DNA from: a virus
DNA length: 25,913 nucleotides
Reading direction: 5' to 3' (one strand)
Virus record (IMG/VR): IMGVR_UViG_3300025280_000144
Location: 1-25,913 of that record
Both the position numbers and the translations under genes were made by a program. Numbering within the stretch: the first letter of the stretch is position 1; each line of letters opens with the position of its first letter. The notes beneath the pieces were generated by a model. That model had not been told where the DNA came from, did not search any database, and was given only the letters and a program-made list of their open reading frames with translations. Below are positions 5,826 through 25,913 of the stretch, piece by piece.

Positions 5826-5832
5826 TCAATCA

Positions 5833-6018: not shown

Positions 6019-6275
6019 TAGAGACTATCTGCCTCAACTTCATTAGTCCCTACAAATACATCCGTTCCAGGTGGCCTGACAATAGGAACACTCTGATCAT
6101 CGGGCCTGCCTCTAACTTGATCTTGAGGATGTCTCTGCTCCCAAGACCTTCCCCGCACAAGTAGACCATTCCACTCCAGTTGGCATTCGGATGCCTTGAC
6201 CTTGAATCCCGTTCTGTCACAAATCACGTTGTAATCACCGGGCTTATACCAAGGGTTCCCGCCGCGATCTGGCAT
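6018..6275 (-). CDS. Small phage connector-region protein (WYKPGD ... RHPQD type)
   Basis: 85 residues with the recurring phage pattern WYKPGDYNVICDRTGFKVKAS, then EWNGLLVRGRSWEQRHPQD and VRGRPDDQSVPIVRPP. Proteins of this kind sit beside connector or tail genes in many phages. Some homologues, as I recall them, have a Cys4 zinc-ribbon-like arrangement; here the second and later Cys positions are Thr, Arg and Ser, so a zinc site is unlikely. An AAGGA site lies before ATG 6275, which directly follows the stop of the gene above with no gap. Function is unknown; a structural or completion role is inferred from position. Confidence 0.75.
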   Translation of the reverse strand: MPDRGGNPWYKPGDYNVICDRTGFKVKASECQLEWNGLLVRGRSWEQRHPQDQVRGRPDDQSVPIVRPPGTDVFVGTNEVEADSL

Positions 6276-7317: not shown

Positions 7318-7324
7318 AAGCTAA

Positions 7325-7384
7325 CTATGATGCGCCGGGGGCAGCGCTTACCCCCGACCCATCACCATACAGGTGTGGCTGCAT
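7325..7384 (-). CDS. Possible 19-codon mini-gene
   Basis: A short reverse frame from ATG 7384 to TAG 7325 encodes MQPHLYGDGSGVSAAPGAS. It fills most of the 108-base gap between the beta-helix gene and the Rossmann-like gene and ends seven bases before the next ATG. Short Gly/Ala/Pro-rich mini-proteins occur in phage late operons, and this could couple translation to the next gene, which lacks a good Shine-Dalgarno. Its own ribosome site is weak. The same bases form a hairpin, so it may instead be untranslated. Confidence 0.3.
   Translation of the reverse strand: MQPHLYGDGSGVSAAPGAS
7336..7356 (-). other. GC-rich hairpin in a late-operon gap
   Basis: CGGGGG at 7336-7341 pairs with CCCCCG at 7351-7356 around a nine-base loop (cagcgctta) that itself contains the palindrome AGCGCT. 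No T-run follows on the minus strand, so it is not a classic rho-independent terminator. It may stabilise the mRNA end or set relative expression of downstream genes. Confidence 0.45.
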
Positions 7385-7425
7385 GATTAAGATTGACTCC
7401 CAAGTGATTAGATCATCTCCACCAT

Positions 7426-8367
7426 TTAAGAGTCCACAGCCGGAAGTATGTATCCGCTGGCGGTATCCGTCGCCGTACCATAGTTCTCGATCTGTCGCAC
7501 TCCATCACAATCGACCAGGATCTCACTCGCAGTATCATGGTGCCCGATGAAGTTGTTGGCAACAATACCAGTGTTGGCGGTTGTATCATTATCAATCAGG
7601 AGGTCTCCTGCGGTATTGCCGACCACTACATAATTGTCGGCAACAACCACCTCGGTCAGGTCTTTCCCAGTCGCACAGAGAATAAGCTTGCAACTGGTCG
7701 CACCATCGCAAATCACTGAATTCCCAGTGAAGATCCCCTCCGCAAGATCAGCATTGATCTCAATCATCTCCAGCCCAGCAGTGTCAGGAGACACCCAACG
7801 ACAGTTGGTGACCTTCAGGCCATCAGCTTCATTGTTTGTCGTCCCCGTTGCCTTGATTGGGCTAAGGAAATTCTCGTCATCCGTGTTGTCAACGAATTCA
7901 ATTTGATCAAACCAGGCACCAACCGCCGTTACTCCAACTCCCGCCACCACATCGGCATGGCCTGATGCGAAGACCATATTCGACAAAGTAACGTCGGCGG
8001 CTGATATCACCGCCGTCACCGATGTACCACCGTCCATCAGGAAGCGTGGGCGTTGATTGAAATTCCCGAGACCAATAGCTGTGATCCCAGCTACATCAAG
8101 AGCAATCCCAGCCGCACCCGTAATAGTCTCAGCGTGGTTCGGCATCAATAGAATGACATCGCCATTGTTGGCCGTGCATTGACCGATAGCATAATCAAAC
8201 GTGCTAAAGGGCCTGTCACGGGAACCTTTGTTCCCATCTGACCCATTGGCACTATTCACCCAAAATACGTTGCCTGCATAACTGTTCAGCACAGGCATAC
8301 CAAGGATACTCACTCCGTTGGCGAACCCGCCAGGGTAATGAGACCCCTTCCAACCTTTAGTCGCCAT
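7426..8367 (-). CDS. Right-handed beta-helix virion protein next to the capsid gene
   Basis: 313 residues. After an N-terminal segment (MATKGWKGSHYPGGFANG...) comes WVNSANGSDGNKGSRDRPFSTFDYAIGQC, the usual opening of pectin-lyase-like parallel beta-helix proteins, with 'sequential tiles' of short strands through the rest (VTLSNMVFAS, LKVTNCRWVS, GIFTGNSVICD, VVVADNYVVVGN, GIVANNFIGH). No catalytic Asp/Glu pair is obvious. The first ~35 residues may be a particle-binding part. It lies directly after the major capsid gene and has a GGAG ribosome site. It could be a head fibre, decoration or glycan-binding protein; its position among head genes favours a head-associated role over a tailspike. 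Confidence 0.75.
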   Translation of the reverse strand: MATKGWKGSHYPGGFANGVSILGMPVLNSYAGNVFWVNSANGSDGNKGSRDRPFSTFDYAIGQCTANNGDVILLMPNHAETITGAAGIALDVAGITAIGLGNFNQRPRFLMDGGTSVTAVISAADVTLSNMVFASGHADVVAGVGVTAVGAWFDQIEFVDNTDDENFLSPIKATGTTNNEADGLKVTNCRWVSPDTAGLEMIEINADLAEGIFTGNSVICDGATSCKLILCATGKDLTEVVVADNYVVVGNTAGDLLIDNDTTANTGIVANNFIGHHDTASEILVDCDGVRQIENYGTATDTASGYILPAVDS

Positions 8368-8385
8368 ATTTATTCTCCAGACAAG

Positions 8386-8413
8386 AGGGGCGACTCATAA
8401 AAGAGCCGCCCCT
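8386..8413 (-). terminator. Strong hairpin after the major capsid gene
   Basis: On the minus-strand transcript AGGGGCGGCTC pairs with GAGUCGCCCCU through 11 base pairs (one G-U wobble) around a six-base loop, 29 bases after the capsid stop codon. The following bases CTTGTCTGG are not a good U-tract, so it is probably a partial terminator or an mRNA 3'-end stabiliser, which would let capsid protein be made in larger amounts than the downstream tail proteins. Confidence 0.6.
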
Positions 8414-8441
8414 ATCCGCCGATCAATATCGGCACTTGTGG

Positions 8442-9350
8442 TTATGCACCAGGCGAACCATATACGCCGCGCCAATCGGTAGATCCTACTGAAAGGCGGA
8501 AATAGATAGCCGCTTTGGCGTTCTTCGTATCGAAGTCATTGTCCTGGCTGAAATCAATCCTCTCACGCCAGATGAACTTCTGAGCCTCAGGACAATTAGT
8601 CTTAACAAACCAAGCATCCGTATCATTGAGGAAGGAATTAACCAAAATCCCCTCCGGGAATGAACCAGTAACGCGCAATGCGTTCACGGCATTGTTCGCT
8701 GTGTCATTCTGATTCACTGATTTCAATATACGGTTGGCCTCAAACTCAAGATCAGGGGGCACAATCAACTTCCGAGATTGCAACTGTACCCGCAATCCAC
8801 GGTCGTTCTTGGCCTTCCGAATCTTGATCACGATATCTTCCAGAGAAGCTTCTGAGAGATCCGCTGCTGTCGTCAACTCATTGGACTGATCTCCAGAACT
8901 GGTTGGATGATCAGTAGCCAGCATCTCCTTGGCATCACCGAATGTGTACGAACTATTGAATCCACGATTGTAAACATTCGCTGCAATCGTCTCGATGGAA
9001 TTAGCCGCCGAGAACGCCAAGGCCGAAGCCCGACGCCGGGAGACAACTTCATACAAATTGTCCCTCAATTCTTCATACGTCACGATGTAGCCAAGAGCAT
9101 ACGCAGTGTGCGTATAACGAGTCGTCTCACCCTGGGTCTCTGAATCATATGTAATGGATGTACCTTCCGGTTTCGCCGGAACCATTCCAAATCCAGTGAC
9201 CTCCACATCCTCCTCATAATTCTGCTTTGAGGATGTGACCTCAAACATTCCAGGGTAGAGTTCTGGATAGCGTTTGTACTGACGCCCCCAGAATTGTTGC
9301 ACCCCAGGCCATAAAGCCTTCGGATGATTACCAGTTGTGATAACTGCCAT
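8442..9350 (-). CDS. Major capsid protein
   Basis: 302 residues, of the size and composition of the Mu gpT-like / podovirus major head family. The N-terminus is MAVITTGNHPKALWPGVQQF, followed by WGRQYKRYPELYPGMFE, a P-loop-like beta segment (EEDVEVTGFGMVPAKPEG), the long helix region (TYEELRDNLYEVVSRRRA ... ALAFSAANSIETIAANVYN) and an A-domain with SRKLIVPPDLEFEANRIL. It ends in FIWRERIDFSQDNDFDTKNA and VGSTDWRGVYGSPGA. It should form the T-number shell with the scaffold. A GGGGGAG ribosome site precedes ATG 9350 and a stable hairpin follows the stop, both consistent with high expression. Confidence 0.9.
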   Translation of the reverse strand: MAVITTGNHPKALWPGVQQFWGRQYKRYPELYPGMFEVTSSKQNYEEDVEVTGFGMVPAKPEGTSITYDSETQGETTRYTHTAYALGYIVTYEELRDNLYEVVSRRRASALAFSAANSIETIAANVYNRGFNSSYTFGDAKEMLATDHPTSSGDQSNELTTAADLSEASLEDIVIKIRKAKNDRGLRVQLQSRKLIVPPDLEFEANRILKSVNQNDTANNAVNALRVTGSFPEGILVNSFLNDTDAWFVKTNCPEAQKFIWRERIDFSQDNDFDTKNAKAAIYFRLSVGSTDWRGVYGSPGA

Positions 9351-9365
9351 TGTTCAGTCTCCCCC

Positions 9366-10007
9366 CTAGATGCCCAAGATGCCGTCACCGGCAGCAGTGC
9401 TGCCGTGGGCCTCGGTATGGTTGGAAACCAGAACCTCGACCCGAGCATGAGTGAGTGTTGTGTCGTTATCATCACGATTCACCGCTCGTATGATCAGGAG
9501 TTGATTAGATGCGTCCGCTGCCGGGGCATCCGAAGTTGTATCAAGCTCCATACCAGAGCGCCCGGTTGATGTATTACCGGAGTGCGTCGCAATCAACACT
9601 GCATTCAAGCCCATCGATGCCGCAGGTATCGCCCCGTCAGCCTGAACTTCAAAAGCAAGATCAGGATCATCGGCGACCCACGCTACGCCCTCTGTGGACG
9701 CAGGACTATAGGCTCTATCAGGGTTCGACGGATCAGCGGCAAATGAAACAATCACGCCAGTCACGCGATTGCCATCTCCCACCGTTGCTGAAGTGATCGC
9801 TGGCAAAGTGCCAATCGGAGCGACCCCCACGCCTGGGACCTTCACTTCAGCGGTATTTGACGTGCCCGATTTGATAACAGCATCTCCCACGAATAATGCC
9901 GTGCCGTATGCGGCAGGAATATAATATGGGTTCGCTGCTCCATTGTAAGGGGCACCATTGCGATGCCGCATGGGCATAAGCCCACTCGGCCTGTCAACAT
10001 TCGCCAT
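9366..10007 (-). CDS. Head decoration / structural protein upstream of capsid gene
   Basis: 213 residues, starting MANVDRPSGLMPMRHRNGAP, then YIPAAYGTALFVGDAVIKSG and a beta-rich stretch (VAPIGTLPAITSATVGDGNRV ... VTGVIVSFAADPSNPDRAY), ending in VEVLVSNHTEAHGSTAAG. The AY..A..VGD.V...G pattern is common in structural proteins encoded directly before this type of capsid gene. A decoration or cement function fits the gene order but is inferred. The ATG follows a good GGGAG site; the stop is 15 bases before the capsid ATG. Confidence 0.75.
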   Translation of the reverse strand: MANVDRPSGLMPMRHRNGAPYNGAANPYYIPAAYGTALFVGDAVIKSGTSNTAEVKVPGVGVAPIGTLPAITSATVGDGNRVTGVIVSFAADPSNPDRAYSPASTEGVAWVADDPDLAFEVQADGAIPAASMGLNAVLIATHSGNTSTGRSGMELDTTSDAPAADASNQLLIIRAVNRDDNDTTLTHARVEVLVSNHTEAHGSTAAGDGILGI

Positions 10008-10028
10008 GTTTTACTCCCAAAATGAAGC

Positions 10029-10045
10029 CCGCTTATCTCAAGCGG
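10029..10045 (-). other. Small hairpin between head genes
   Basis: CCGCTT (10029-10034) and AAGCGG (10040-10045) form a six-base-pair stem with a five-base loop. On the minus strand it is followed by a T-rich stretch (TTCATTTT), so it may act as a weak terminator or processing site before the decoration and capsid genes. It lies just upstream of the ribosome site of the 9366-10007 gene. Confidence 0.4.
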
Positions 10046-10075
10046 ACTAGAGTTTATGCCAATAGGACCGAGTGA

Positions 10076-10534
10076 TCATCGTGTCTCCACTGTGATTCCA
10101 CGGCCCTGACTTGATGGATAGAACTTGCTACGGTCTGAACCGTCAGCCCCTTTGACCAACCCTCCCCGCAGCTGTTCATCAACTTCATCCAGTTCAGCCT
10201 GCTTGGCAGCCTGATCCTGGGTATAGAATTTCATCGGAAGCTCCATTAGGAAGCCATACTTAGGGCTACCGTTCTCATGCACGCCTACTATCTGGCGTAT
10301 TCGTGTGTCTAGTTTAACACCCGACGACTTCTCAATTGCCTCTTTGTCCTGAACAAACTGATATCCAGCTTCTTCAAATCTCTGAAGACGCCCAGGATCT
10401 TCATTGACCCAGCGTCTATAGTAGCCCTTACGTTCGGGCGCTTGTAGCCTCTGCTGAACGCCGCCAACCGGCTTTCTTGGCTTCCTTTCCCTTCGCTCAC
10501 GTCTCTCAAACTGAACTTCGTCTTTTTCTGCCAT
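10076..10534 (-). CDS. Conserved phage protein between scaffold and decoration genes
   Basis: 152 residues. The N-terminal quarter is strongly basic (about residues 8-37, ERRERRERKPRKPVGG...), then YYRRWVNEDPGRLQRFEEAGYQFV, a motif often seen in phage head-region proteins, and an acidic/Gln-rich middle. Its C-terminus is RSKFYPSSQGRGITVETR. There is no membrane segment or catalytic motif. I chose ATG 10534, with GGGAG seven bases before it, over the GTG one codon upstream. It may be a head assembly or internal protein; I cannot name a function. Confidence 0.72.
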   Translation of the reverse strand: MAEKDEVQFERRERRERKPRKPVGGVQQRLQAPERKGYYRRWVNEDPGRLQRFEEAGYQFVQDKEAIEKSSGVKLDTRIRQIVGVHENGSPKYGFLMELPMKFYTQDQAAKQAELDEVDEQLRGGLVKGADGSDRSKFYPSSQGRGITVETR

Positions 10535-10546
10535 CACGCGACTCCC

Positions 10547-11353
10547 TCATTTGCGCTCTTGTTCAAAATATGCAGCAGCGTACTCCCCAAGAGATTTGAA
10601 GAGACCCTCTTCCACATACCGTTTACCGTGTGCGCGAGCTTCTGGCGGAAGATCGGCAGCCTTCCCGCTCCCAGTTCCGGCACGCTGTTGTCCCCCACCT
10701 TCAACGTGCGGAGCACCCCTACCGCCAGACTCACCAAATTTCGCAGGATAAGCCTTCCTGACTAGATTGCTCACTTCATCAAGTTGTCCTGATAAAGGCA
10801 GACCAGGCTTCTCTGCTTGCACATCATCCAGATAGCCAATCGCTAATCGCGTCATCGCGCTATCTTTATTAAACCACTGATTTTTCGATTCCCACGCCAA
10901 CACTTCTGCTGGCGGTTTAGATTCCGGGTTATCACCACGCAGACTGCTCTCAACCAGCTTCCGATCACGTTCCGCAGCCTCAAATGCACCTTGATCACTG
11001 TTCCGCACTGCGGCACGCTGTCTCTGCTGAATGTCAGCGAATGCCTTGGCGTATTCACGCTCACTGACCTGGGAAATCACTCCGCCAAGATTATTAACTA
11101 CAGTCTTCAGACGTTCAATCTCGCTGTGAGCAGTATCGAGCCGTTCTCGGCTGATCTCCTTGATATTCTCTCCGCGTTCAACAAATTCATCAGCATCACG
11201 CCAGATGTCTGGATCTCCCCGCCATTCTTCTCTTGGAACCCATCCATCCTTCCTGGCACGGACCTCAACCTCAGTCTCAGTCTCACTAGATCCCACATCC
11301 TCCTGAGTAGTATCAACCTCAGTGGCATCTTGCCCCTCTGTCTCGTCGATCAT
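10547..11353 (-). CDS. Scaffolding protein
   Basis: 268 residues, very hydrophilic. It opens with an acidic tail (MIDETEGQDATEVDTTQEDV...), then the phage-scaffold-like block RARKDGWVPREEWRGDPDIWRDADEFVERG (given here in family terms), a long coiled-coil segment (ERLDTAHSEIERLKTVVNNL... through about residue 135) and a helical C-terminus ending YAAAYFEQERK. Its position two genes before the capsid gene fits a scaffold that templates procapsid assembly and exits before DNA packaging. The start at ATG 11353 has AAGGGA just upstream. The W-V-P...E-W motif is a recurring scaffold signature. Confidence 0.85.
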   Translation of the reverse strand: MIDETEGQDATEVDTTQEDVGSSETETEVEVRARKDGWVPREEWRGDPDIWRDADEFVERGENIKEISRERLDTAHSEIERLKTVVNNLGGVISQVSEREYAKAFADIQQRQRAAVRNSDQGAFEAAERDRKLVESSLRGDNPESKPPAEVLAWESKNQWFNKDSAMTRLAIGYLDDVQAEKPGLPLSGQLDEVSNLVRKAYPAKFGESGGRGAPHVEGGGQQRAGTGSGKAADLPPEARAHGKRYVEEGLFKSLGEYAAAYFEQERK

Positions 11354-11391
11354 CGTATCCCTTCCCTATTCTCTGAATCATCATTCACTCA

Positions 11392-13647
11392 TTAAGTGCG
11401 CGTATTCTGCGGGATCTTCATTCCTTCCACGATTGGAATCCCAAACACTCTCTCTATTATTGGTCCCACCGTTACGCGACCTGGCGTCGCTCCAGTTCTT
11501 TTTATCATATCTAATGTTAGATCCTCTTTGGCTGTCCATAGCAAAGCCGCATCCCGGCTATCAAAGACGAAAGAGAGGTGGGATACGACACCTTCTGCCG
11601 TGATCCTTCTTCCCTCTTCATCAAAGATCCCCCACTTACCAGTATCAAGATCGATCTCCTGCACCTCCACACCGTATTCTTCCGCTAATTTCCTGAAGTA
11701 ATTAGTGTGTGCCTTGTCATATAGCTCCCTGGTCCACTTTGCTTCATACCGGATGTCAAGATCCGAATAACCAGTATCTCTAACACTGAAGACACTCTCA
11801 ATTACATTTTCCGTCCAATTTTCATTATCCTCCAGTGTGGGGTATGCCCGCATCAACGCCTCGTAAACTCCAATATCATTTGATATCAGCACATGAAGGT
11901 CATTGTATGATACCTGTTGATGACTCATCGCCTCTCGAGCAATCCGAATCATCTCATTGTTAACTTCAGTATCTACAAGGTAAGGACTGCGATGGTTAAG
12001 GACGAGGAGTGGACGATCCCCGCGAATTCTCTCCGCAATATCATCGCCAAGAACATCGTTTAGTTCATTGTCTTTGATCTTTAACTCTCTGGAGAGACCT
12101 CTGGACTCAATATTTCCTGGTCCTGACAGTTCGTCTGGGACGAACTTGGTGCGTATTAACCATCCACTCCCATCGGAAGCGCGTTCCACATTGGCAATCG
12201 CTTTGATCACTCCGTCCAGTCTGTAAGACCTCGCAACCTGCTCTCCCGTAGGCCATGTCAAAAAGTCATAGCCATTGTCTGCGGCGTAGCGCAGCATCCG
12301 GCGCATGCCAAGCTTTGCCCATTCCATATCGTCTTTGTATGGCAGGTTGGGAACACGATCCCTGGACAGATACGGCTCTAACTCTGATCTAAGTTCCTCC
12401 CATTCCCTCTGATCCATGTCGGACGAACTGGAAGGACCAAGGTGTCTCGCTTCATTCCGGTCAACATGCGTCCCTTGCATGTAACGATTCATCTTTACTT
12501 GAATCTCTGGTGTTAACGGCGGTCTCCACCCCCTCTCCCGCCCAACCTTTTCCCAATCGCTCTGATTTTCCCCCATGTGGATAATATCATGCCCACCGCC
12601 GATTGATGATTCGGGGCCTGAGAGGAAATCCCATGTTCGGAGCCGGGTAATAGTGTTGAACGGGTCGCCGTGTCGACCAGGAAATTCCACCCCAAAATCC
12701 TGCCGCAGAAGGGGCGGGGCAGCAAGGCCAGCTCCCTCAAAAGATACGACAGCCGGTCGGTCCCATGGTTGAAACCTTAGAAATATTTCCCGCGCATCAC
12801 TACCGCCGGGAAAATTCTTCCATCTGGCGTGCTTGGCCTCGCCCCGTGGCCTGAGAATATTTGAACCGGTTGTACCAGAAACCCGATCAGGAGCGCCGCG
12901 GAACACTTCGGTGGGTATAAGCTGACCTCGACCAACTATTTCCAGGATCTCGTTCTTGGGAATATCACGATTTATATTTTCAGGCGACTGAAACCACTCG
13001 TTTAACCCAGAATACCCGATCTCAACATTACCAGCACCGCCGCGTCTTAACACATTCTTCCACACGTCGGGGTTCCCTGTTGTTCTTACTGTATTGAAGA
13101 TGGCTTCGAAAGCCCTGGAATTCCATAGAGGGCCGGAGGGAGTTGCTACTCCTCCAAAGGAGCCAATTGGCCTGCCGCGCTGTCGCTGCAGTTGCACGGG
13201 CTCCGTGACTTGAGCGGGCACCTCTTGAGCAGGCACCTCTTGAGCAGACGGCAACTGCGTGAAATTCCTAATCTCTCTGGCAAATCGCAATGGACTGAAC
13301 GGTCTCACTGTGCCAGTTACTTTCCCGCCCCGCCTAAAATACGATCCCACATCCCTGAGATAATCGGAAACACCAGGGACATCTCCAAGATTTTGCCTAT
13401 CCAGTAGTCTTCCGAGAGCATTCACATCCCGCTGATTCTGAGGAGGTCGCAATCTCGCAAATTGGCTCCTCAGGCCCCTCAGTCGTTTAGCCAACACATT
13501 GTCGTCGGGCCTTCTTTGAGGAGTCGTCCGCCTCCGTGTAGCCCCACCAATTCCGCCAAGGGGGCCATGACCACTAATAAAATGGTCAAATTCTGGTCTG
13601 TTCTGGACCAGATGTCGCCAGATACTCGGTGGTCTGAACGCCGCCAT
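11392..13647 (-). CDS. 751-residue multidomain protein of the phage 'polyvalent protein' type
   Basis: Residues 1-150 are basic (many Arg/Pro). Two VPAQE repeats and an AT-hook-like RQRGRPIGS follow at about 138-160. A block EIGYSGLNEWFQSPEN ... IPKNEILEIVGRGQL follows at about 200-235. Then come WKNFPGGSDAREIFLRF (about 275-292), IIHMGENQSDWEKVGRERGW (about 350-370), PYKDDMEWAKLGMRRMLRYAADNGYDFLTWPTGEQ (about 430-465, in pieces), and a C-terminal YDKAHTNYFRKLAEEYGVEVQ (about 648-668). This ordered set (sGLxeWL / PGGxxYREILL / EIQSDWHQ.GR / ELamKRmlRyAaenGyd.i.WttGeq) is known from large phage and mobile-element proteins thought to be injected with DNA. The activity of the domain is unknown to me. 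The gene sits between scaffold and portal-side genes, fitting an internal virion protein. Confidence 0.75.
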   Translation of the reverse strand: MAAFRPPSIWRHLVQNRPEFDHFISGHGPLGGIGGATRRRTTPQRRPDDNVLAKRLRGLRSQFARLRPPQNQRDVNALGRLLDRQNLGDVPGVSDYLRDVGSYFRRGGKVTGTVRPFSPLRFAREIRNFTQLPSAQEVPAQEVPAQVTEPVQLQRQRGRPIGSFGGVATPSGPLWNSRAFEAIFNTVRTTGNPDVWKNVLRRGGAGNVEIGYSGLNEWFQSPENINRDIPKNEILEIVGRGQLIPTEVFRGAPDRVSGTTGSNILRPRGEAKHARWKNFPGGSDAREIFLRFQPWDRPAVVSFEGAGLAAPPLLRQDFGVEFPGRHGDPFNTITRLRTWDFLSGPESSIGGGHDIIHMGENQSDWEKVGRERGWRPPLTPEIQVKMNRYMQGTHVDRNEARHLGPSSSSDMDQREWEELRSELEPYLSRDRVPNLPYKDDMEWAKLGMRRMLRYAADNGYDFLTWPTGEQVARSYRLDGVIKAIANVERASDGSGWLIRTKFVPDELSGPGNIESRGLSRELKIKDNELNDVLGDDIAERIRGDRPLLVLNHRSPYLVDTEVNNEMIRIAREAMSHQQVSYNDLHVLISNDIGVYEALMRAYPTLEDNENWTENVIESVFSVRDTGYSDLDIRYEAKWTRELYDKAHTNYFRKLAEEYGVEVQEIDLDTGKWGIFDEEGRRITAEGVVSHLSFVFDSRDAALLWTAKEDLTLDMIKRTGATPGRVTVGPIIERVFGIPIVEGMKIPQNTRT
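11512..11542. repeat. 31-bp dispersed repeat, copy A (in 751-residue gene)
   Basis: The plus-strand 31-mer beginning taatgttagatcctct and ending ggctgtccatagc occurs here and at 19060-19090 with one mismatch (t11528 versus c19076). Here it lies in the 3' part of the 751-residue gene, encoding LWTAKEDLTL. Confidence 0.9.
13167..13189. repeat. 23-bp dispersed repeat, copy A (AT-hook codons)
   Basis: The 23-mer that starts ttggcctgccgcgctgtcgc occurs exactly here and at 18656-18678, in the same strand and reading phase, encoding QRQRGRP in both proteins (751-residue protein and TerS). The neighbouring codons differ. Confidence 0.9.
13218..13247. repeat. Two tandem 15-bp repeats coding VPAQE
   Basis: The 15-mer gcacctcttgagcag is present twice in tandem (13218-13232, 13233-13247). 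It encodes the repeated VPAQE linker immediately before the AT-hook-like stretch of the 751-residue protein. Copy number can change without breaking the frame. Confidence 0.9.
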
Positions 13648-18379: not shown

Positions 18380-18683
18380 GCTCGCTCAATGCCTCCTCAT
18401 GCGTTAATTCCAGTCCGCCACTGTGTTCTATAGCGGCCAGCCTCGGGTGCATATACGGCGCACAATCCTTGGCAACTACAGCAGCCTTCAACTGAATCTC
18501 TCTCACCAACCCTAGATCGTCTGTCTGCTCGGCCTCGGCCCACAGACTACGCATCGTTCCGACCATCACCTCAAGTGGAGTTATACCCTGGTCAGCCAAA
18601 GCCGCAGCAGCCGCTCTGGCCTTCTGCGATTTCGTGTGCTTGTTCTTGCTACCCTTTGGCCTGCCGCGCTGTCGCTGCTCCAT
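18354..18683 (-). CDS. terS: Terminase small subunit
   Basis: 109 residues beginning MEQRQRGRPKGSKNKHTKSQ, a basic, AT-hook-like arm, then ALADQGITPLEVMVGTMRSL and a helical segment with KAAVVAKDCAPYMHPRLAAIEHSGG. This G-R-P-K-G-S-x-N-K ... G-x-T-P-L-E-V-M ... A-A-P-Y-x-H-P-R-L-A pattern is characteristic of one class of phage TerS. The protein recognises the packaging site and stimulates TerL. The RQRGRP codons are an exact 23-bp repeat of DNA in the 751-residue gene. The pac or cos sequence is probably near or inside this gene, but I cannot point to it. Confidence 0.88.
   Translation of the reverse strand: MEQRQRGRPKGSKNKHTKSQKARAAAAALADQGITPLEVMVGTMRSLWAEAEQTDDLGLVREIQLKAAVVAKDCAPYMHPRLAAIEHSGGLELTHEEALSELEGSTLGS
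18656..18678. repeat. 23-bp dispersed repeat, copy B (in terS)
   Basis: Exact second copy of the 13167-13189 repeat, in the same orientation and codon phase. It encodes the QRQRGRP arm of TerS. Confidence 0.9.
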
Positions 18684-19059: not shown

Positions 19060-19090
19060 TAATGTTAGATCCTCTCTGGCTGTCCATAGC
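19060..19090. repeat. 31-bp dispersed repeat, copy B (intergenic)
   Basis: Second copy of the 11512-11542 repeat with one mismatch. Here it is non-coding, upstream of the leftward promoter candidate and about 45 bases before the rightward one. A stop codon precedes it in the frame that would match the 751-residue protein, so it is not a working gene fragment. Confidence 0.88.
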
Positions 19091-19584: not shown

Positions 19585-20005
19585 TCAGCAGCCCACCGGC
19601 GCGTTTGAGTTGTCGTACTGGTGGGATCTGACCCGAGTTCACTAGCCACGTAGGCCACCGCTCATACACTACAACATCGTCAACCTCATACTTGCACGCA
19701 CGCCCACCTGCGTTGATTAGAACCTCACAACCCTCCCTCCATCGTCTCTCTACAACCTGTTCAGCATGATCGGATAGCTCAGAGAATCTCCCAACCCCCG
19801 CCCGCTTGGGCTTAGTTCTTCCAAGGACTTTTCCAGCGAGTTCACTGTATCGCATGCCAGCATTGTGCATATCCTGGCTTATGATTTGTCGGGCTAACAG
19901 ACAGCCAAGCGGGTATTCAGCCAGCACAGGATCGCCGTGTGGTCCGACGATAGCGATCTTGCGAGCCATCGCCTCCGGGGTCCCCGGATCATCGTCGCGA
20001 GCCAT
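19544..20005 (-). CDS. Unknown phage protein at the end of the replication block
   Basis: 153 residues. It contains DPVLAEYPLGCLLARQIISQDMHNAGMRY (in pieces), a basic KVLGRTKPKRAGVGRFSELSD and a helix HAEQVVERRWREGCEVLINAGGRACKYEVDDVVVYER. The start overlaps the RusA-like gene by 17 bases; a second in-frame ATG 12 codons later is possible. It lies where many phages encode a late-gene activator or antiterminator, just downstream of the resolvase, and the helical, basic centre would allow nucleic-acid binding. I cannot assign a function. Confidence 0.65.
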   Translation of the reverse strand: MARDDDPGTPEAMARKIAIVGPHGDPVLAEYPLGCLLARQIISQDMHNAGMRYSELAGKVLGRTKPKRAGVGRFSELSDHAEQVVERRWREGCEVLINAGGRACKYEVDDVVVYERWPTWLVNSGQIPPVRQLKRAGGLLITGLTALSDWIAG

Positions 20006-20396
20006 ATACTCCAGGCCTAACCATCCACTCTAAACGCGGACGTTCACGATCTATGCAGTGTGTCACATGGAATTCACGCACCTGCCGATCTTTACAATAG
20101 ATGAATCCCTCCATCGCTCTAAATACTAAGCTTGGATCCAGAAAGCTCGAACTCTCACTTGGAGCGTACATCCGCAAGGCAGCCGCTAATGGCCCATTGA
20201 GCAGTGGGTCGAGCTTGAGAAGTTGTTGACGGACATGATCCACGTACTTACGCGGTTGCAGTGACTTTGCTGATAAACAAAGCTTGCCAGTCTTGGGATT
20301 CCGCACCATGCGGCGCGAGTTGCTAGGAAGACCCAGGATCACACCACGATGGATGTTCGGCATGGATGGATATGATGTCTCAGCTATGGAGATCAC
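19989..20396 (-). CDS. RusA-like Holliday-junction resolvase, divergent
   Basis: 135 residues. It begins, from GTG 20396, ISIAETSYPSMPNIHRGVILGLPSNSRRMV, and later has LNGPLAAALRMYAP, SFLDPSLVFRAMEGFIYCKDRQVREFHVTH, which aligns by eye with the RusA core RRDLDN...LDALTG..Y.DDRQV. Asp87 and Asp103 match two of the catalytic acidic residues, but the first Asp of the D-x-D-N pair is Phe here. RusA resolves branched recombination intermediates before packaging. The gene begins at the GTG carried by the 25-bp repeat; no Shine-Dalgarno is seen. ATG 20363 is an alternative start. Confidence 0.72.
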   Translation of the reverse strand: MISIAETSYPSMPNIHRGVILGLPSNSRRMVRNPKTGKLCLSAKSLQPRKYVDHVRQQLLKLDPLLNGPLAAALRMYAPSESSSFLDPSLVFRAMEGFIYCKDRQVREFHVTHCIDRERPRLEWMVRPGVYGSRR

Positions 20397-20416
20397 CAGA
20401 GGGTCTTACTCATGCC
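20392..20416. repeat. 25-bp direct repeat flanking the methyltransferase gene, copy 1
   Basis: A perfect 25-mer starting atcaccagagggtcttactc occurs here and at 21206-21230. On the minus strand it contains the stop codon of the methyltransferase (20410-20412) and ends in the GTG start of the RusA-like gene. Confidence 0.95.
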
Positions 20417-21210
20417 AGCATATCAATCTGCTCTAACTTGGGCACTCGCGAATCTATGAACAGATCCGGCTGTCTGTAAGCGTCTTCGATCCGCTTGCAG
20501 GCGATGTCAAAATACTTTGGTTCGATCTCGATGCCAATGAATGAGCGGCCTAACTTGGCACAAGCGACGCCTGTGGTACCGCTGCCCATGAATGGGTCCA
20601 GAACAGAATCTCCAACTGCAGTCGCAGCGCCTATGCAGCGACGAGGTATTTCAACCGGGAACGATACTGGGTGTTCTTTGTGCTGCTCCTTGTTGATTCT
20701 CCAAACTGTTCCCAACCCTGCATGGTCTTGGTTCCATGTCCATTTATCTCGCACGAACCAAAGAATCCGCTCATCAAATCGGCAAAACATTCGAGCGTTG
20801 AACATCATCCCGCCGCCACGGTCCCATACCACTTCTTGTCTCAATGTCCATCCCACTGGGGCAAACCACTGAATAGGATGGGAGACACAGCCATCTCGCC
20901 ATCGGAGCTGATGGTTATAGAAAAGGCTGCAATCGTCCGTAGCATTTATCAGCGCGAATATTTTGTTTTGCCAGGGCACATACACGTCTTCCGACATAGA
21001 ATCCGCATATCCGCGCTCGCGTAGTGCCTCCACCCATGCCGCGCCGCCATCTGACTGAGCCCACATTCCAGTGGGCTGGTCAGGGATCCCCCCTAACGTG
21101 TTGTATGGCGGGGAAGTAACTACCGCATCCACCTTCCCCAACGTCGGCAGAATCTTCAAGCAGTCGCCCAGATAGAGCGTGGCGTTGCCGATCTGAGCGG
21201 GTTTAATCAC
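20410..21210 (-). CDS. DNA adenine/cytosine-N4 methyltransferase
   Basis: 266 residues with the amino-methyltransferase catalytic motif IV DAVVTSPPYN (28-37) before the SAM-binding motif I DPFMGSGTTGVACAKLGRSFIGIEIEP (205-231), the order of the beta class. The target-recognition region lies between them. It transfers a methyl group from SAM to adenine N6 or cytosine N4. No restriction partner is present, so it may protect phage DNA from host restriction or mark DNA for regulation. The start is GTG 21210. The gene is framed by the 25-bp repeat at both ends, suggesting insertion as a cassette. Confidence 0.92.
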   Translation of the reverse strand: MIKPAQIGNATLYLGDCLKILPTLGKVDAVVTSPPYNTLGGIPDQPTGMWAQSDGGAAWVEALRERGYADSMSEDVYVPWQNKIFALINATDDCSLFYNHQLRWRDGCVSHPIQWFAPVGWTLRQEVVWDRGGGMMFNARMFCRFDERILWFVRDKWTWNQDHAGLGTVWRINKEQHKEHPVSFPVEIPRRCIGAATAVGDSVLDPFMGSGTTGVACAKLGRSFIGIEIEPKYFDIACKRIEDAYRQPDLFIDSRVPKLEQIDMLA

Positions 21211-21230
21211 CAGAGGGTCTTACTCATGCC
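21206..21230. repeat. 25-bp direct repeat flanking the methyltransferase gene, copy 2
   Basis: Perfect second copy. On the minus strand it carries the TAA of the 58-residue gene (21220-21222) and ends in the GTG start of the methyltransferase. Read from its internal ATG it encodes a six-residue frame MSKTLW whose TGA overlaps the GTG. Confidence 0.95.
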
Positions 21231-21396
21231 TGTTCAAGCCATTCCATGCCGCAGCTAACTCGACAATAACCTCATCACCAGTCATCCCACCCACCGGCCA
21301 AGTCCTGCCCACAGCGATGATCATCTCGTGATGGGTCAACCCCTGCCTCGTCCACTGCCAGAATTGTTCAATAGATATCTGAGAAGAGGACTCCAT
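21220..21396 (-). CDS. 58-residue protein, unknown
   Basis: Reverse frame from ATG 21396 (or the adjacent ATG 21399) to TAA 21220. The product begins MESSSQISIEQFWQWTRQGL and ends ELAAAWNGLNRHE. It overlaps the end of the loader-like gene by one base (TGATG), and its stop lies inside the 25-bp repeat. Helix-forming, Trp-containing, no known motif. The coupling on both sides suggests it is translated. Before the methyltransferase cassette arrived it would have led directly to the RusA-like gene. Confidence 0.62.
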   Translation of the reverse strand: MESSSQISIEQFWQWTRQGLTHHEMIIAVGRTWPVGGMTGDEVIVELAAAWNGLNRHE

Positions 21397-21842
21397 CATT
21401 TGGAGTGTTCAGTCGTAGCTAGCTCTGATTTTCGGTGGGAACCATTCAACAATCTCGCTTTCATCTCGGCAAAGAGCTTCAAATTCCTCTCTTTCTCGCT
21501 GGGCGTCGGCACACAATCCTCCTCCTGGCTGATCCGTGGCGATGTCATCTGCCTCAGCATGGCTTGCTCGTGAGCTACCGTGCGTGCTTGTTCTGTGATC
21601 TCCGCGACCGTTGGAAACCACCTCCATACTTGAATTCCCTCGTTTAGAGCCATTCCTAGTGTGTTCTCGTCCCACCCCCCCAGGGCTGCGATATACCCCT
21701 TCAATCGGGTCTTCCATTCGCCTTCCGACAGCTTTTGGTCGGGGAACATGAGTGCCAACTCGGTCAGCATCACTGTCAATCGCCTCTGCTTCTTCGATGA
21801 CCTTTGCCGATCCACGTCGTAAGGCTGTGAAACCATGCTCAT
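21396..21842 (-). CDS. Helicase-loader-like / replication accessory protein
   Basis: 148 residues from ATG 21842 (GGGA six bases upstream), although ATGs two codons before and after are possible. It reads SSKKQRRLTVMLTELALMFP, then KLSEGEWKTRLKGYIAALGG, ENTLGMALNEGIQVWRWFPTVAEITEQA and a charged C-terminus. The pattern L..L...FP...LS...W..RL.GY..AL.....L..A........FFPT..E is one I associate with phage replication proteins encoded after DUF1376-type genes, with helicase loaders among them. The family function is not certain. Its frame lies inside the 3' part of the DUF1376 frame, a 434-base overlap. Confidence 0.72.
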   Translation of the reverse strand: MSMVSQPYDVDRQRSSKKQRRLTVMLTELALMFPDQKLSEGEWKTRLKGYIAALGGWDENTLGMALNEGIQVWRWFPTVAEITEQARTVAHEQAMLRQMTSPRISQEEDCVPTPSEKERNLKLFAEMKARLLNGSHRKSELATTEHSK

Positions 21843-22533
21843 TCTCATTCCCTTTCTGTGGTGCTGGATCGTCGTCCCAGCATTCAGAGTTGAGCCAGGT
21901 GGATGGGTGCTTAGTGAAGCTCTGGTCCTCACCTGCCCGCTCACCAGCATACCTCTCCGACCCTTTCAGAAGAATATCCCCAGTAGTCTTCTTCAGTGCC
22001 TTGATGTATGCGGTCCTGGCCCGGCCCTTACCAACCTTCCTCGGATAGCTTTCGTACCACTTGAGAAATCTAATCTCCTCATCAGAAATGGATTTCTTTC
22101 TATTGATTCTTTCTTCCTCTTTCTCTTTCTGAAGTATGGACTCTGTAAGAGCAGAGCGTTCGCTGTGCGTTCGCTGTGCGGACGCATCCTCGTTCTCTCG
22201 GAATTTCAACCACTTAGCTTTCGCACTCTTACTCGCAGACCGTGATCTGCTGGCCGCATTTTTGTGTTCACTGGATAACCTCTTCTGCCGATAGTGACCG
22301 TCATTGAGCTGCCAGAATCGCATGACATTAGGTTTCATCTTCCGCCAAGACCTCGGATCGCCACCAACAACCCTCCGCAGGAATGTGTCATCGTCCGGAA
22401 GAGAGCAGTCAGGTTGATTCCATGCCTCTAGTAATAACCGCACGTATGCACCAACCTCGGCAGGCGTCAGATAATGCGTGTCCGCGATGAAATCCTTAGT
22501 CCAGAGTGGCAAGTATGGCAGTTTTTTCGCCAT
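21409..22533 (-). CDS. DUF1376 (YdaU-like) replication protein, with unusual open C-terminal extension
   Basis: 374 residues. Residues 3-85 (PYLPLWTKDFIADTHYLTPA...GAYVRLLLEAW) are a DUF1376 domain. A Lys/Ser-rich linker follows, then KWYESYPRKVGKGRARTAYIKALKK (158-182) and FTKHPSTWLNSECWDDDP (207-224), the usual end of this protein type. These are origin-binding or primosome-like replication proteins in phages. Residues from about 228 to 374 are in a frame that covers the loader-like gene and look low in complexity (many R, G, S, D, H), so they may not be a real domain. A strong AAGGGGG site precedes ATG 22533. The true functional product may end near residue 225-240 if a frameshift has occurred. 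Confidence 0.8.
   Translation of the reverse strand: MAKKLPYLPLWTKDFIADTHYLTPAEVGAYVRLLLEAWNQPDCSLPDDDTFLRRVVGGDPRSWRKMKPNVMRFWQLNDGHYRQKRLSSEHKNAASRSRSASKSAKAKWLKFRENEDASAQRTHSERSALTESILQKEKEEERINRKKSISDEEIRFLKWYESYPRKVGKGRARTAYIKALKKTTGDILLKGSERYAGERAGEDQSFTKHPSTWLNSECWDDDPAPQKGNENEHGFTALRRGSAKVIEEAEAIDSDADRVGTHVPRPKAVGRRMEDPIEGVYRSPGGVGREHTRNGSKRGNSSMEVVSNGRGDHRTSTHGSSRASHAEADDIATDQPGGGLCADAQREREEFEALCRDESEIVEWFPPKIRASYD
22156..22177. repeat. Tandem 11-bp repeat in the DUF1376 gene
   Basis: gcgttcgctgt occurs twice in tandem (22156-22166, 22167-22177) and a third partial copy starts (gcgg). The period is not a multiple of three, so gain or loss of a unit would shift the reading frame between the N-terminal DUF1376 domain and the conserved C-terminal block. 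Confidence 0.9.
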
Positions 22534-22840
22534 CAGAATCCCCCTTCAGAATGCCACGAATTTCCTCTACCAGCAGATCACGGTCATGCTGCCGAGTTAC
22601 CAACTGGAATCGTCGAGTGTAATATGAGTACTTGCTCCCCTTAACAGGATCATCACCAAAGAGACGAGCTATCTCACTGAACTTCATGCTGAACATCTCT
22701 CTGAATACCCATGTCGCCATCTGCCTGGCAGCCATTCCCCGCCCAGCACCATCTCTCAGAACAACAGCGTCGACTCCAAATGTGTTGGAAATGTGTTCCT
22801 GCACGCGATTGACCATCCCCAGCTTTCTAATGATCACCAT
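22496..22840 (-). CDS. DnaA domain IV-like DNA-binding protein
   Basis: 114 residues. Residues 26-85 resemble the C-terminal helix-turn-helix of DnaA: RGMAARQMATWVFREMFSMKFSEIARLFG (34-62) parallels R..vvlARQiamyL.rel...s..eIG..FG. The following GRDHSTV-like signature is replaced by DDPVKGSKYSYYTRRF. The family binds DnaA-box-type sequences; here it may recognise the phage origin. It sits directly before the DUF1376 gene and overlaps it by 38 bases. The start ATG 22840 overlaps the nuclease gene; ATG 22816 is possible. Confidence 0.75.
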   Translation of the reverse strand: MVIIRKLGMVNRVQEHISNTFGVDAVVLRDGAGRGMAARQMATWVFREMFSMKFSEIARLFGDDPVKGSKYSYYTRRFQLVTRQHDRDLLVEEIRGILKGDSDGEKTAILATLD

Positions 22841-23190
22841 TCGTGAATGACCGACTTGATGAACGACAGCATGATCTTCTCGGGCAGAACATACAGCCGT
22901 TCTCTGTTGTTCATTCTGATAGCTAGGAAATCGTTATCGGAGAGCTGATCGTATATCGTCTTGTATCCACTCCTCCGGACCTTAACCTCGCCCTGAAGCC
23001 CTGCAAGGGTGACATCACCCTTGTATCCACGCATTGCGCCACTGAGAGGCACACGCACGCAAGCGTCAGGAGGGACACCGTTATCATGCCAGAACCGGAC
23101 AAAATCTCGTTCCTCGCGCAGACCCTTATCGCGCTGCGGCTTGCCCAATTCATTGACCCATGAAGAAATCGTTCGGCAGAACTTGTCCAT
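22834..23190 (-). CDS. PD-(D/E)XK nuclease, putative phage Holliday-junction-type endonuclease
   Basis: 118 residues from ATG 23190, chosen because of a perfect GGAGGT site six bases before it. Residues 20-70 read RDKGLREERDFVRFWHDNGV ... RVPLSGAMRGYKGDVTLAGLQGEVKVRR. Glu27, Asp59 and Glu68-x-Lys70 fit the PD-(D/E)XK catalytic set; the arrangement K-G-x-x-x-E...R.P.SG...G.KGD....GEVK is common in phage nuclease/resolvase proteins. The ORF overlaps the HTH gene by 41 bases. It probably cuts branched DNA or digests host DNA during replication. Confidence 0.77.
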   Translation of the reverse strand: MDKFCRTISSWVNELGKPQRDKGLREERDFVRFWHDNGVPPDACVRVPLSGAMRGYKGDVTLAGLQGEVKVRRSGYKTIYDQLSDNDFLAIRMNNRERLYVLPEKIMLSFIKSVIHEW

Positions 23191-23341
23191 CCGTGACCTC
23201 CGAGATTCGACGCAGATGCTTGGCGTTTGGATAACGCCTCGAGGCGAGGTATCGGTGGATGGTTTGCCGGGACACACCCAAACGGCGTGCAAACTCCGTC
23301 ACACCGATGCTCTCTTCAGTCAGGTACGTTTTCAGCTTCAT
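23150..23341 (-). CDS. Small helix-turn-helix regulator (Cro/CI-like)
   Basis: 63 residues from ATG 23341 (MKLKTYLTEESIGVTEFARRL, then GVSRQTIHRYLASRRYPNAKHLRRISEVT). The helix-turn-helix is residues 14-35 (VTEFARRLGVSRQTIHRYLASR). It resembles Cro-type and YdaS-like regulators, transcribed leftward as the first gene of the replication block. No good ribosome site is seen, so translation may be weak. The TTGCAG half-sites in the divergent region beginning about 90 bases upstream are its likely operators, inferred from position only. The frame is open farther upstream to 23389, but that part is not HTH-like. Confidence 0.83.
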   Translation of the reverse strand: MKLKTYLTEESIGVTEFARRLGVSRQTIHRYLASRRYPNAKHLRRISEVTDGQVLPNDFFMGQ

Positions 23342-23406
23342 GCAGGTAACGTAACTGTTTACGCAAGAAGATGCAAACTTGCCGGTCAACTGACGGAAGA
23401 TTTGGA

Positions 23407-23412
23407 TTTATA
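23407..23412 (-). promoter_or_regulatory. Weak leftward promoter -10 candidate for the HTH gene
   Basis: TATAAA on the minus strand, about 65 bases before the HTH start codon. A good -35 is not seen at 16-18 bases; that position overlaps the TTGCAG..CTGCAA palindrome at 23429-23442, so a regulator could repress or aid this promoter. Confidence 0.35.
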
Positions 23413-23428
23413 GTTTGGGAACAGTGAG

Positions 23429-23482
23429 TTGCAGGACTGCAAGTTTTCGTCCCCGGAACTTGCAGAACTTGCAGAACTTGCA
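23429..23482. promoter_or_regulatory. Operator or iteron cluster in the divergent control region
   Basis: A palindrome TTGCAG-GA-CTGCAA (23429-23442) is followed by three perfect tandem 9-mers gaacttgca (23456-23464, 23465-23473, 23474-23482), each containing TTGCA and followed by g. All lie between the leftward HTH gene and the rightward promoter. The nine-base spacing and shared TTGCAG half-site suggest binding by a phage regulator or replication initiator. Confidence 0.75.
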
Positions 23483-23509
23483 GCTCGTAGAATTCTCCCA
23501 TCTAAGTTA

Positions 23510-23538
23510 TTGACTGACGTAGCCAAAACGGTTACTAT
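23510..23538 (+). promoter_or_regulatory. Strong rightward sigma70-like promoter
   Basis: TTGACT (23510-23515), a 17-base spacer, then TACTAT (23533-23538). It lies 38 bases before the start of the recombination operon and 27 bases after the last TTGCAG repeat, well placed for repression by a protein bound there. Confidence 0.75.
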
Positions 23539-23576
23539 TAACGCATAGAAAGAGAGAAACCTGGAGGACAGAGACC

Positions 23577-23942
23577 ATGCCAAGAACACATGAATCAGAT
23601 ATCGCGGGCTGGCTCACTGAGATCGAGGACCAGTTGAACATAGGAACAGAAAATGGTCAGTGGCGCGGCGACGACATTTCCCGAACAACGATGAGCAAGG
23701 GCTTACTTCTCGAAGCTAGGGAGGATGTCCTTGGCAAGCGACAACAGTTGGACGATTACATTGATAAATCTACCAACGATTCCGCAGCCGCCGCCAATAG
23801 AATATTCAGTCTCCGGGAAATCTATTGTCACATCATTGACATTTTAACTTTGCAGATCGACTCCATCGAAGCCGATGAGCGTGAGGCTGTGGCGTGGGAG
23901 GATCATCGGAGGGTCGAAACCCAACTAATTCAGAGAGGATAA
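23577..23942 (+). CDS. First gene of the recombination operon, unknown
   Basis: 121 residues, acidic, mostly helical, including EDQLNIGTENGQWRGDDISR, then SKGLLLEAREDVLGKRQQLDDYIDKS and SLREIYCHIIDILTLQIDSIEADER. No membrane segment or known motif. A GGAGG site precedes ATG 23577 and the strong promoter at 23510 is just upstream. It stops one base before the ERF gene. It may be a regulator or inhibitor of a host function, such as a nuclease inhibitor in the style of lambda Gam, but this is only suggested by the operon position. Confidence 0.7.
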   Translation: MPRTHESDIAGWLTEIEDQLNIGTENGQWRGDDISRTTMSKGLLLEAREDVLGKRQQLDDYIDKSTNDSAAAANRIFSLREIYCHIIDILTLQIDSIEADEREAVAWEDHRRVETQLIQRG

Positions 23943-23943
23943 C

Positions 23944-24654
23944 ATGGAACGGAGTCAGTCTATCGGCAAGCTTTCTGAAGCCTTAGCCAAGGCTCAAGCG
24001 GCTATGCCCAGCGCGGAACGGACGCAGACAAACGCATTCTTCAAAAAACCAGACGGCACCTTCTATAAATATGCCGACCTACAGAGTGTTAGAGACTCAG
24101 TCATACCCTCTCTTACCAATAACGGACTAGCGGTGACGCAGGCAACATCGGTGGGAGTGGATGGAGCATTCACACTTAGAACCCTGCTAATCCACACTAG
24201 TGGGGAGTGGATTGCCTCGGATTGGCCTCTTGAAACAGGTAAGCCACATGTGATGTTGTCGTCTCTGACATACGCCCGACGGGCTTGCCTATCATCCATA
24301 GTGTGTCTCGCTTCAGAAATTGATGACGATGGCAACTTGGCCTCTGGAGTCAAGAAACGAAAGCTTGATTTCGACCCGAGAACGCCGCCAGCAGCGGGGC
24401 TGCCAACCGTAGCGGCGCTGAGGGAAGACTTGAAGTCTTTTCGTGACGATCTTTCTAACTGCCAATCAACCGCCGATGTTGATGATCTAGTGGCGCACAA
24501 CCACGATCTCCTCTCAGCCGTCAAGTCACGGAAACCCGACTGGTTTTTCGGCAACCCTCCACCGAACGGAGATGTGCCAGGGCTAATGGACCGCATCGAG
24601 GCTAGGAAGATCGAGCTTCGGAATAACGAAACTAATATTTTGGGCGGTGGATAG
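23944..24654 (+). CDS. erf: ERF-family single-strand annealing recombinase
   Basis: 236 residues. The core (residues about 8-130) has FYKYADLQSVRDSVIPSLTNNGLAVTQ (40-66), LRTLLIHTSGEWIASDWPL (78-96), then SSLTYARRACLSSIVCLASEIDDDGN (106-131), the signatures of the ERF family named after P22 Erf. Such proteins bind single-stranded DNA and anneal complementary strands, for genome circularisation and recombination. The C-terminus (about 135-236) is more variable and helical. Start ATG 23944 follows an AGAGGATAAC site. It works next to the RusA-like and PD-(D/E)XK nucleases of the leftward block and the Ref-like nuclease below. Confidence 0.92.
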   Translation: MERSQSIGKLSEALAKAQAAMPSAERTQTNAFFKKPDGTFYKYADLQSVRDSVIPSLTNNGLAVTQATSVGVDGAFTLRTLLIHTSGEWIASDWPLETGKPHVMLSSLTYARRACLSSIVCLASEIDDDGNLASGVKKRKLDFDPRTPPAAGLPTVAALREDLKSFRDDLSNCQSTADVDDLVAHNHDLLSAVKSRKPDWFFGNPPPNGDVPGLMDRIEARKIELRNNETNILGGG

Positions 24655-24664
24655 GGAGATAGAC

Positions 24665-24961
24665 ATGACAACCTTTGACGCAATGGCCGTACACAAGTAT
24701 CCCGGTGGTGAGAAATGGACGAAAATTGGCAAGGCCTTCCCCCATAAAACCGGCAATGGCTTCACCCTGTCACTTCACTTGATGCCTCTACCAACAGCGT
24801 CAACAACCGATGGTGATATGACATACAAAATTGTCCTTCTCGAAGAGAAAAGGGAGCAGCCATCGGCCCGGCGTGATGCAGTATACCGCCCAGTCTCTAG
24901 GGGTATATCGGCTGAGGACGCCGCGGAATTCGCGAACTTAGACGATGAGATGCCATTATGA
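24665..24961 (+). CDS. Small conserved protein of the recombination cluster
   Basis: 98 residues from ATG 24665, chosen because of the AGGGAG site six bases upstream; a GTG 18 bases earlier overlaps erf. It has WTKIGKAFPHKTGNGFTLSLHLMPLP, a motif (W..iG.AFPhk.G.Gf.l.l..lPl) recurrent in small proteins of phages and mobile elements, then a charged tail with DDEMPL. The function of that family is not known to me. The gene overlaps the next by four bases (ATGA). Confidence 0.72.
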   Translation: MTTFDAMAVHKYPGGEKWTKIGKAFPHKTGNGFTLSLHLMPLPTASTTDGDMTYKIVLLEEKREQPSARRDAVYRPVSRGISAEDAAEFANLDDEMPL

Positions 24962-25377
24962 GGTTCTTACTACAGCGGTCGGATACTGAGGCCCTGGTAC
25001 CGGTCGATGAACCAGGTCACAAAGCAATCAAGAAGATGAAGCCTGGTCAGACGATGTGTGTCGATATCCGACGTGTACGATCTCCTAGGCAGTTGCGCTT
25101 ATATTGGGCGCTGATCAACAAGATATGGGAGAATCAAACTCGGTTCGCCGTCCGGCAGGATCTCTCTGATGCTATTAAATGTGCGCTCGGCCACTGTACC
25201 GAGTTGAGGCTATCCAACTCTGTCGTCATCCAACGGCCAAAATCTATAGCCTTGGGCAACCTCCCGGCTGGTGAATTTAATCAGTTCATCGACGGCTGTA
25301 TCGATTATATTTGCGGATCGGTTCTGCCTGTCGCACCCGAAACATTACGACAGGAAATCGAAGAGATGATATTTTGA
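24958..25377 (+). CDS. DUF1367/NinB-like recombination-region protein
   Basis: 139 residues. It has the set I..RRVRSPRQLRLYWALINKIWENQ (about 38-60), LSDAIKCALGH, VIQRPKSIALGNLPAGEFNQFIDGCIDYI and the C-terminal TLRQEIEEMIF. The pattern of hydrophobic-Arg (RN..hHRkfWAL) followed by PKSI(S/A)...EF..F.....D.I is that of DUF1367-like phage proteins, related by place and pattern to NinB/Orf, which assists recombination by loading annealing proteins. ATG 24958 shares four bases with the previous stop. Confidence 0.72.
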   Translation: MRFLLQRSDTEALVPVDEPGHKAIKKMKPGQTMCVDIRRVRSPRQLRLYWALINKIWENQTRFAVRQDLSDAIKCALGHCTELRLSNSVVIQRPKSIALGNLPAGEFNQFIDGCIDYICGSVLPVAPETLRQEIEEMIF

Positions 25378-25745
25378 TTCGGAGGAAGCCATCCCCTCCC
25401 AGGACCAAGGAAATGCCCGAAAGGGCTTTCCCCAAACACCAGCAATACATACGCTCAAAGGCGTGTGTCGTGCCTGGTTGTGCCAGCCGGAATATCATCT
25501 GCGCTCATGTCCGGAGCGGACTACCTAAAGGTGAGCAGGCTGGAACGGGACAAAAGCCTCACGACACGTTCACTGTTCCACTTTGTCGGTCCCACCATGA
25601 CGAACAGCACAGTCTAGGAGAGATCACGTTCCAGAAGCAACATAAGATAGATTTATTGAAGCTGTCGCTGTTGTATGCTTCCGGCAGCCCGGAAAGCAAA
25701 ATATGGCGGAAAGCGAATCTGATCAAGCTTCAGATGAGAGCCTGA
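25374..25745 (+). CDS. Ref-like HNH-type nuclease
   Basis: 123 residues from TTG 25374 (TTGA overlap with the previous stop); an internal ATG at 25413 would shorten it by 13 residues. The first 25 residues (IRRKPSPPRTKEMPERAFPK...) are basic. Then KACVVPGC (29-36), NIICAHVRSGLPKG (40-53), TGQKPHDTFTVPLCRSHHDEQHS (58-80) and GEITFQKQH give the Cys/His metal and catalytic set of the Ref/DUF968 HNH group. P1 Ref is a RecA-dependent endonuclease; the group is common in phage recombination operons. It ends the rightward operon and is convergent with the next gene. Confidence 0.8.
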   Translation: MIRRKPSPPRTKEMPERAFPKHQQYIRSKACVVPGCASRNIICAHVRSGLPKGEQAGTGQKPHDTFTVPLCRSHHDEQHSLGEITFQKQHKIDLLKLSLLYASGSPESKIWRKANLIKLQMRA

Positions 25746-25752
25746 TCGCACC

Positions 25753-25913
25753 TTAACTCTTGGAGATCAGATTCTTAATCCTCGACTCAACCACGGGTAG
25801 GATTCTAATACCACAATAACCAATTACGAAGGCCATAGCCGGTCCCCAGACAATATCAAGGGTGAAGTGCTTCATGATCGGTGGGATAAAGAATTCTGCT
25901 GCAATCCAGCCCA
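25753..25913 (-). CDS. Holin-like membrane protein, 5' end outside the window
   Basis: Reverse frame open from the right edge to TAA 25753, at least 53 residues. Visible segments are GWIAAEFFIPPIMKHFTLDI and VWGPAMAFVIGYCGIRILPV followed by VESRIKNLISKS. Two hydrophobic stretches separated by a short loop, with a charged C-terminus, resemble small phage holins or accessory lysis/membrane proteins. It meets the Ref-like gene tail to tail with a seven-base gap and no visible bidirectional terminator. The N-terminus is not in the window. Confidence 0.6.
   Translation of the reverse strand, partial: GWIAAEFFIPPIMKHFTLDIVWGPAMAFVIGYCGIRILPVVESRIKNLISKS

Follow-up and report, generated by a model that had tools for sequence, protein, structure and literature searches.

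The DNA analysed here, hereafter the window, is a complete IMG/VR virus record of 25,913 bases. Its minus-strand early genes are, in order, a nuclease-like gene, a DnaA-C-like gene, a DUF1376 replication gene, a 59-aa gene, a DNA methyltransferase, a RusA-like gene, and a 153-aa gene, and the methyltransferase lies between two copies of a 25-bp direct repeat. The features relevant to this arrangement are listed below.

21220-21399, minus strand: 59-aa gene preceding the methyltransferase; its two homologues (54% each) lie in differing gene contexts
21206-21230, minus strand: copy 2 of the 25-bp repeat, with the TAA stop (21222-21220) of the 59-aa gene, mini-ORF MSKTLW (then stop), and GTG start of the methyltransferase
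20410-21210, minus strand: DNA methyltransferase of the N6_N4_Mtase family, 266 aa (PF01555, E=6e-34; phrog_67, E=5e-60)
20392-20416, minus strand: copy 1 of the 25-bp repeat, with the TGA stop (20412-20410) of the methyltransferase, mini-ORF MSKTLW (then stop), and GTG start of the RusA-like gene
19989-20396, minus strand: RusA-like gene, 135 aa, downstream of the methyltransferase; weak PF05866 match (E=0.003, below the cut-off)
23944-24654, plus strand: ERF-family single-strand annealing protein (PF04404, E=6e-16)

The genes and the phage

The methyltransferase has a PF01555 score of 118.3 bits against a curated cut-off of 26.7 and a beta-class motif order, in which SPPY precedes DPFMGSGTTG. 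The alignment of the protein to its relatives begins at the GTG start, and the C terminus is of natural length. A foreign base composition was considered and rejected: GC3 is 0.577, compared with a phage mean of 0.525 (standard deviation, 0.045), and codon use is likewise ordinary, so that neither measure gives a sign of foreign origin. A plasmid search returned no match.

For the downstream neighbour, RusA-like is a weak label, given a PF05866 score of 18.5 bits against a curated cut-off of 22.8; this gene, which starts with CTCCATAGC, has no match in PHROG, no relatives in viral contigs, and only 38%-identical matches among phage records. The 153-aa gene has no relatives in either the viral contigs or the phage records. 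The upstream gene, counted as 58 residues in a reading made earlier from the sequence alone, has 59. One of its homologues (L004) has an MT-A70-like methyltransferase on one side and a DUF1376-like gene on the other; the second (L165) is at an operon end. A RusA-like gene is adjacent to neither homologue. These differing contexts indicate that the 59-aa gene itself changes neighbours. Nearby, the DUF1376 replication gene (21409-22533, minus strand) overlaps, at its 3' part and in another frame, 542 of the 555 bases of a 184-aa minus-strand frame (21396-21950). An overlapping frame at the end of the replication gene is also present in L004 (4231-4803), L022 (3462-3944), L005 (2706-3503), and L086 (5534-6247), and the two may form an overprinted gene pair.

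Another record, IMGVR_UViG_3300009620_000043, is 26,257 bases long. It agrees with the window at positions 1-12156 (99.85%) and 21089-25913 (100%), and has about 9.3 kb between the two matching parts that the window lacks. Judged by this match, it is the same phage, and joining the two records into a circle would give a genome of about 35 kb. Over window positions 1-12156, the records differ by six single-base changes and one 12-base insertion in 12 kb, mostly below position 330. The large terminase is 37-41% identical to its best cultured-phage matches, which are Pseudoalteromonas and Vibrio phages. The window has other repeated sequence as well. A 23-bp direct repeat (13167-13189 and 18656-18678, 100%) and a near-exact 31-bp one (11512-11542 and 19060-19090, 97%) both connect a 751-aa gene with the small-terminase gene and the sequence upstream of that gene, with the order reversed between the two. 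Within a 429-aa gene, the product of which is probably a tail-fibre protein, three imperfect copies of a 110-base stretch occur with a spacing of 177 bases (3232-3695).

A 25-bp repeat at two gene boundaries

The sequence GGCATGAGTAAGACCCTCTGGTGAT, read on the minus strand, occurs exactly twice in the window, at 21206-21230 and 20392-20416, with a spacing of 814 bp. These exact matches bear out what the sequence-only reading had described. In random sequence of this size, about 3e-7 exact 25-bp direct repeats are expected by chance. No 10-mer of the repeat occurs elsewhere in the window, and the flanks of the two copies are unrelated, diverging immediately and leaving sharp edges.

Each copy was also said to hold the stop of the preceding gene and the GTG of the following one. 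That is correct, with the refinement that the stops differ. At copy 2, the 59-aa gene reads AGG CAT GAG TAA and so ends on TAA; the methyltransferase ends on TGA at copy 1 (GCA TGA). The same 25 bases are therefore read in two different frames. Both copies carry the six-codon frame noticed earlier, ATG AGT AAG ACC CTC TGG TGA (MSKTLW), whose TGA overlaps the GTG of the next gene as GTGA.

We propose that the 25-mer is probably a gene boundary that was duplicated when the methyltransferase, together with one junction, was gained by short-homology recombination. An alternative is that the sequence is a functional element, a translational or regulatory signal whose identity at two early genes selection or gene conversion would maintain, rather than a scar of gene gain. 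Its position at two gene starts of one operon, with a stop/start relay inside the repeat, suits that idea, as does the precedent of the Start Associated Sequences (SAS) of Cluster K mycobacteriophages, which are short repeats at the starts of non-structural genes that sometimes include the stop of the previous gene (PMC3203893). However, SAS occur in 11 to 19 copies per genome and have an AGGAG core, whereas the window has two copies around a single gene, with no Shine-Dalgarno core and no similar element at the other gene junctions tested in the window and in 20 kb of the sister record. The anti-Shine-Dalgarno pairing energy before the GTG of the repeat is -2.2, about the random median of -2.3, although many other genes of this phage have strong sites. 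The repeat contains no promoter or terminator signal above chance and no stem-loop terminator, and an Rfam search gave no match. The last findings also bear on the PeSL cassettes of T4-like phages (Arbiol 2010 and Comeau 2014, as cited in PMC4503421). These too are repeated intergenic signals, through which genes are shuffled, but they comprise a promoter and a terminator stem-loop, which the window repeat lacks. Together with the missing 25-mer among relatives of the methyltransferase described below, these observations make a conserved functional element unlikely.

Relatives of the methyltransferase and parallel repeats

About 80 loci with related methyltransferases were read; none contains the 25-mer or a convincing sequence like it. 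In 52 of 83 relatives, the 3' end of the gene forms an ATGA overlap with the next gene, so the TGA within ATGA at copy 1 is typical of the family. The closest relative (L005, 60%) has the 3' junction GCATGAGCAAG, in which 10 of 11 bases match the 25-mer. A junction of this type might have served as an anchor point for crossover, to go by the shared bases, though gene starts encoding MSK are common.

The 25-mer was also followed beyond these loci. An exact search of IMG/VR contigs found one further record, the sister record, in which the methyltransferase is still present, and a search of GTDB species genomes found none. Neither these exact searches nor protein searches revealed a relative that has one junction and lacks the methyltransferase. 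A simulated 814-bp deletion between the copies leaves both neighbouring ORFs open and unchanged, in agreement with the earlier statement that recombination between the repeats would delete the gene cleanly. The companion idea of an inserted methyltransferase plus one junction fares less completely: the identical boundaries, the intact deletion product, and two parallel lineages favour it, but a single-junction relative, its most direct counterpart, did not turn up. Phages with and without the methyltransferase may coexist.

The parallel lineages emerged when all loci were scanned for direct repeats at both boundaries of a gene. In two further phage lineages, a methyltransferase of the same family is flanked by direct repeats of 23 to 32 bp taken from the end of a neighbouring gene. 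In the first (L020, L022, and L028), the repeat is 23 bp long and leaves a 14-codon mini-ORF, made from the start of the following gene, ahead of the methyltransferase; in L022, for instance, the start ATGATTGATATTTCAGAACAGTC recurs as the mini-ORF MIDISEQSYLAERG, with its stop, directly before the methyltransferase. In the second (L041), 32 bp from the end of the preceding resolvase-like gene (VVLTAEDALE) recur directly downstream of the methyltransferase. Other genes show related patterns. The 312-aa gene before the methyltransferase of L020 is itself flanked by an 18-bp repeat, CTGGCCGAAAGAGGCTAA (2989-3006 and 3968-3985), as if two insertions had been stacked at a single site. In L126, a 171-aa gene of unknown function lies between exact 34-bp repeats (3983-4016 and 4557-4590), the first of which comprises the previous stop and the start of the 171-aa gene; in the second lies the start of the gene that follows (MNES...), an arrangement much like that of the window.

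In a second alternative, MSKTLW is the truncated start of a lost gene (MSK...) that once lay 3' of the methyltransferase. The RusA-like gene would have taken the place of that gene, and a later copying event would have put the junction at the end of the 59-aa gene as well. The mini-ORF in L020, L022, and L028 is itself a cut-off copy of a gene start, and in both L005 and L036 the methyltransferase is followed by an ATGA-overlapping gene that begins with MSK. With MSK starts so frequent, however, two cases among about 50 carry little weight, and the second copy calls for an additional event; we see only a slim chance that this is what happened.

The presence of repeat-flanked methyltransferases in two other lineages argues for a recurrent process. 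With related loci collapsed and the window left out, boundary repeats occur at 2 of 108 methyltransferases, compared with 3 or 4 of 1,033 other genes of at least 150 aa (about 0.3-0.4%). This enrichment is only suggestive. In a post hoc test with related loci collapsed, it is not significant at repeat scores of at least 18 (p = 0.07-0.10); at scores of 14 to 16, also collapsed, p is 0.02, with one of the three matches (L040) being only a tandem pair of methyltransferases. Uncorrected p values range from 0.0006 to 0.05. A broader reading, which we consider improbable, is that orphan phage DNA methyltransferase genes travel one at a time as cassettes and enter gene boundaries through a shared mechanism, in which 23 to 32 bp of the adjoining gene end are duplicated and a tiny frame is often left as a bridge.

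To the eye, the repeats of 23 to 32 bp around methyltransferases in three lineages resemble target-site duplications, such as a mobile element might have left on moving the gene. Yet the sequence between the copies encodes no transposase, integrase, or homing nuclease and has no terminal inverted repeats (none of at least 18 bp), so the hallmarks of a transposon or insertion sequence between direct repeats are absent from the window. The methyltransferase is the sole ORF with a known family there, and insertion at gene boundaries, like the loss of significance at high repeat scores once lineages are collapsed, also speaks against an element, which we consider very improbable. An assembly artefact that joined two fragments at a common 25-mer is hardly credible: copy 1 is found in the window record only, as the sister record ends within the methyltransferase (at window position 21089), but copy 2, at the junction of the 59-aa gene and the methyltransferase, is confirmed by that independent, near-identical record, the frames are intact on either side of both copies, and joining short reads normally needs overlaps longer than 25 bp.

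A probable duplicated gene boundary and its precedents

A duplicated boundary is thus the explanation we favour. In the proposed ancestor, the 59-aa gene would have been joined to the RusA-like gene through one junction, and recombination at short homologies around a stop/start boundary would have brought in the methyltransferase and produced the second copy of the junction. The reverse route, from an old two-junction state to loss of the gene in some lineage, would pass through the same intermediate, and the event may have been a gain here or a loss elsewhere. The ERF-type annealing protein of the phage itself is the likeliest enzyme. Rad52-like phage recombinases, Erf included, recombine short or diverged homologies (PMC3945230).

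With its stop, its bridge of six codons, and its GTG start, each junction would couple translation of an inserted gene to its upstream neighbour, and we propose that gain or loss thereby keeps the neighbours readable. Pairing before the GTG that is no better than random, in a phage with strong Shine-Dalgarno sites elsewhere, makes coupled translation likely.

The closest precedent is found in Cluster I mycobacteriophages, where about 60 bp are common to the ends of genes 67 and 68 of Island3 and are present in a single copy in Brujita, which lacks gene 68 (PMC3029335). The resemblance lies in a lone additional gene that has short direct repeats at gene ends, in recombination between the copies as an explanation for its presence or absence, and in general recombination enzymes being sufficient; in the window, the repeat is identical at both boundaries of the gene, and the neighbours stay open after simulated recombination between the copies. 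The differences are that the Island3 repeat lies at the 3' ends of two genes, whereas the 25-bp repeat includes a stop and a start, and that Brujita provides a single-copy partner genome, whereas IMG/VR and GTDB yielded none for the window phage. More generally, phage mosaicism, as summarised in PMC3029335, includes homologous recombination at short conserved boundary sequences that swaps whole genes. The window resembles it in the proposed exchange of a whole gene at short sequences between genes, but no second phage was found with the 25-mer beside other genes.

The repeat pair is, on this account, the clean scar of the gain or loss of a single gene with both gene ends kept, and the scar is probably recent. 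On present evidence, the window adds one further example of short-repeat gene exchange, a route already known for gene gain and loss in phages. Should the parallel cases share a single process, that process would account for the movement of modification genes from phage to phage with operons left unbroken.
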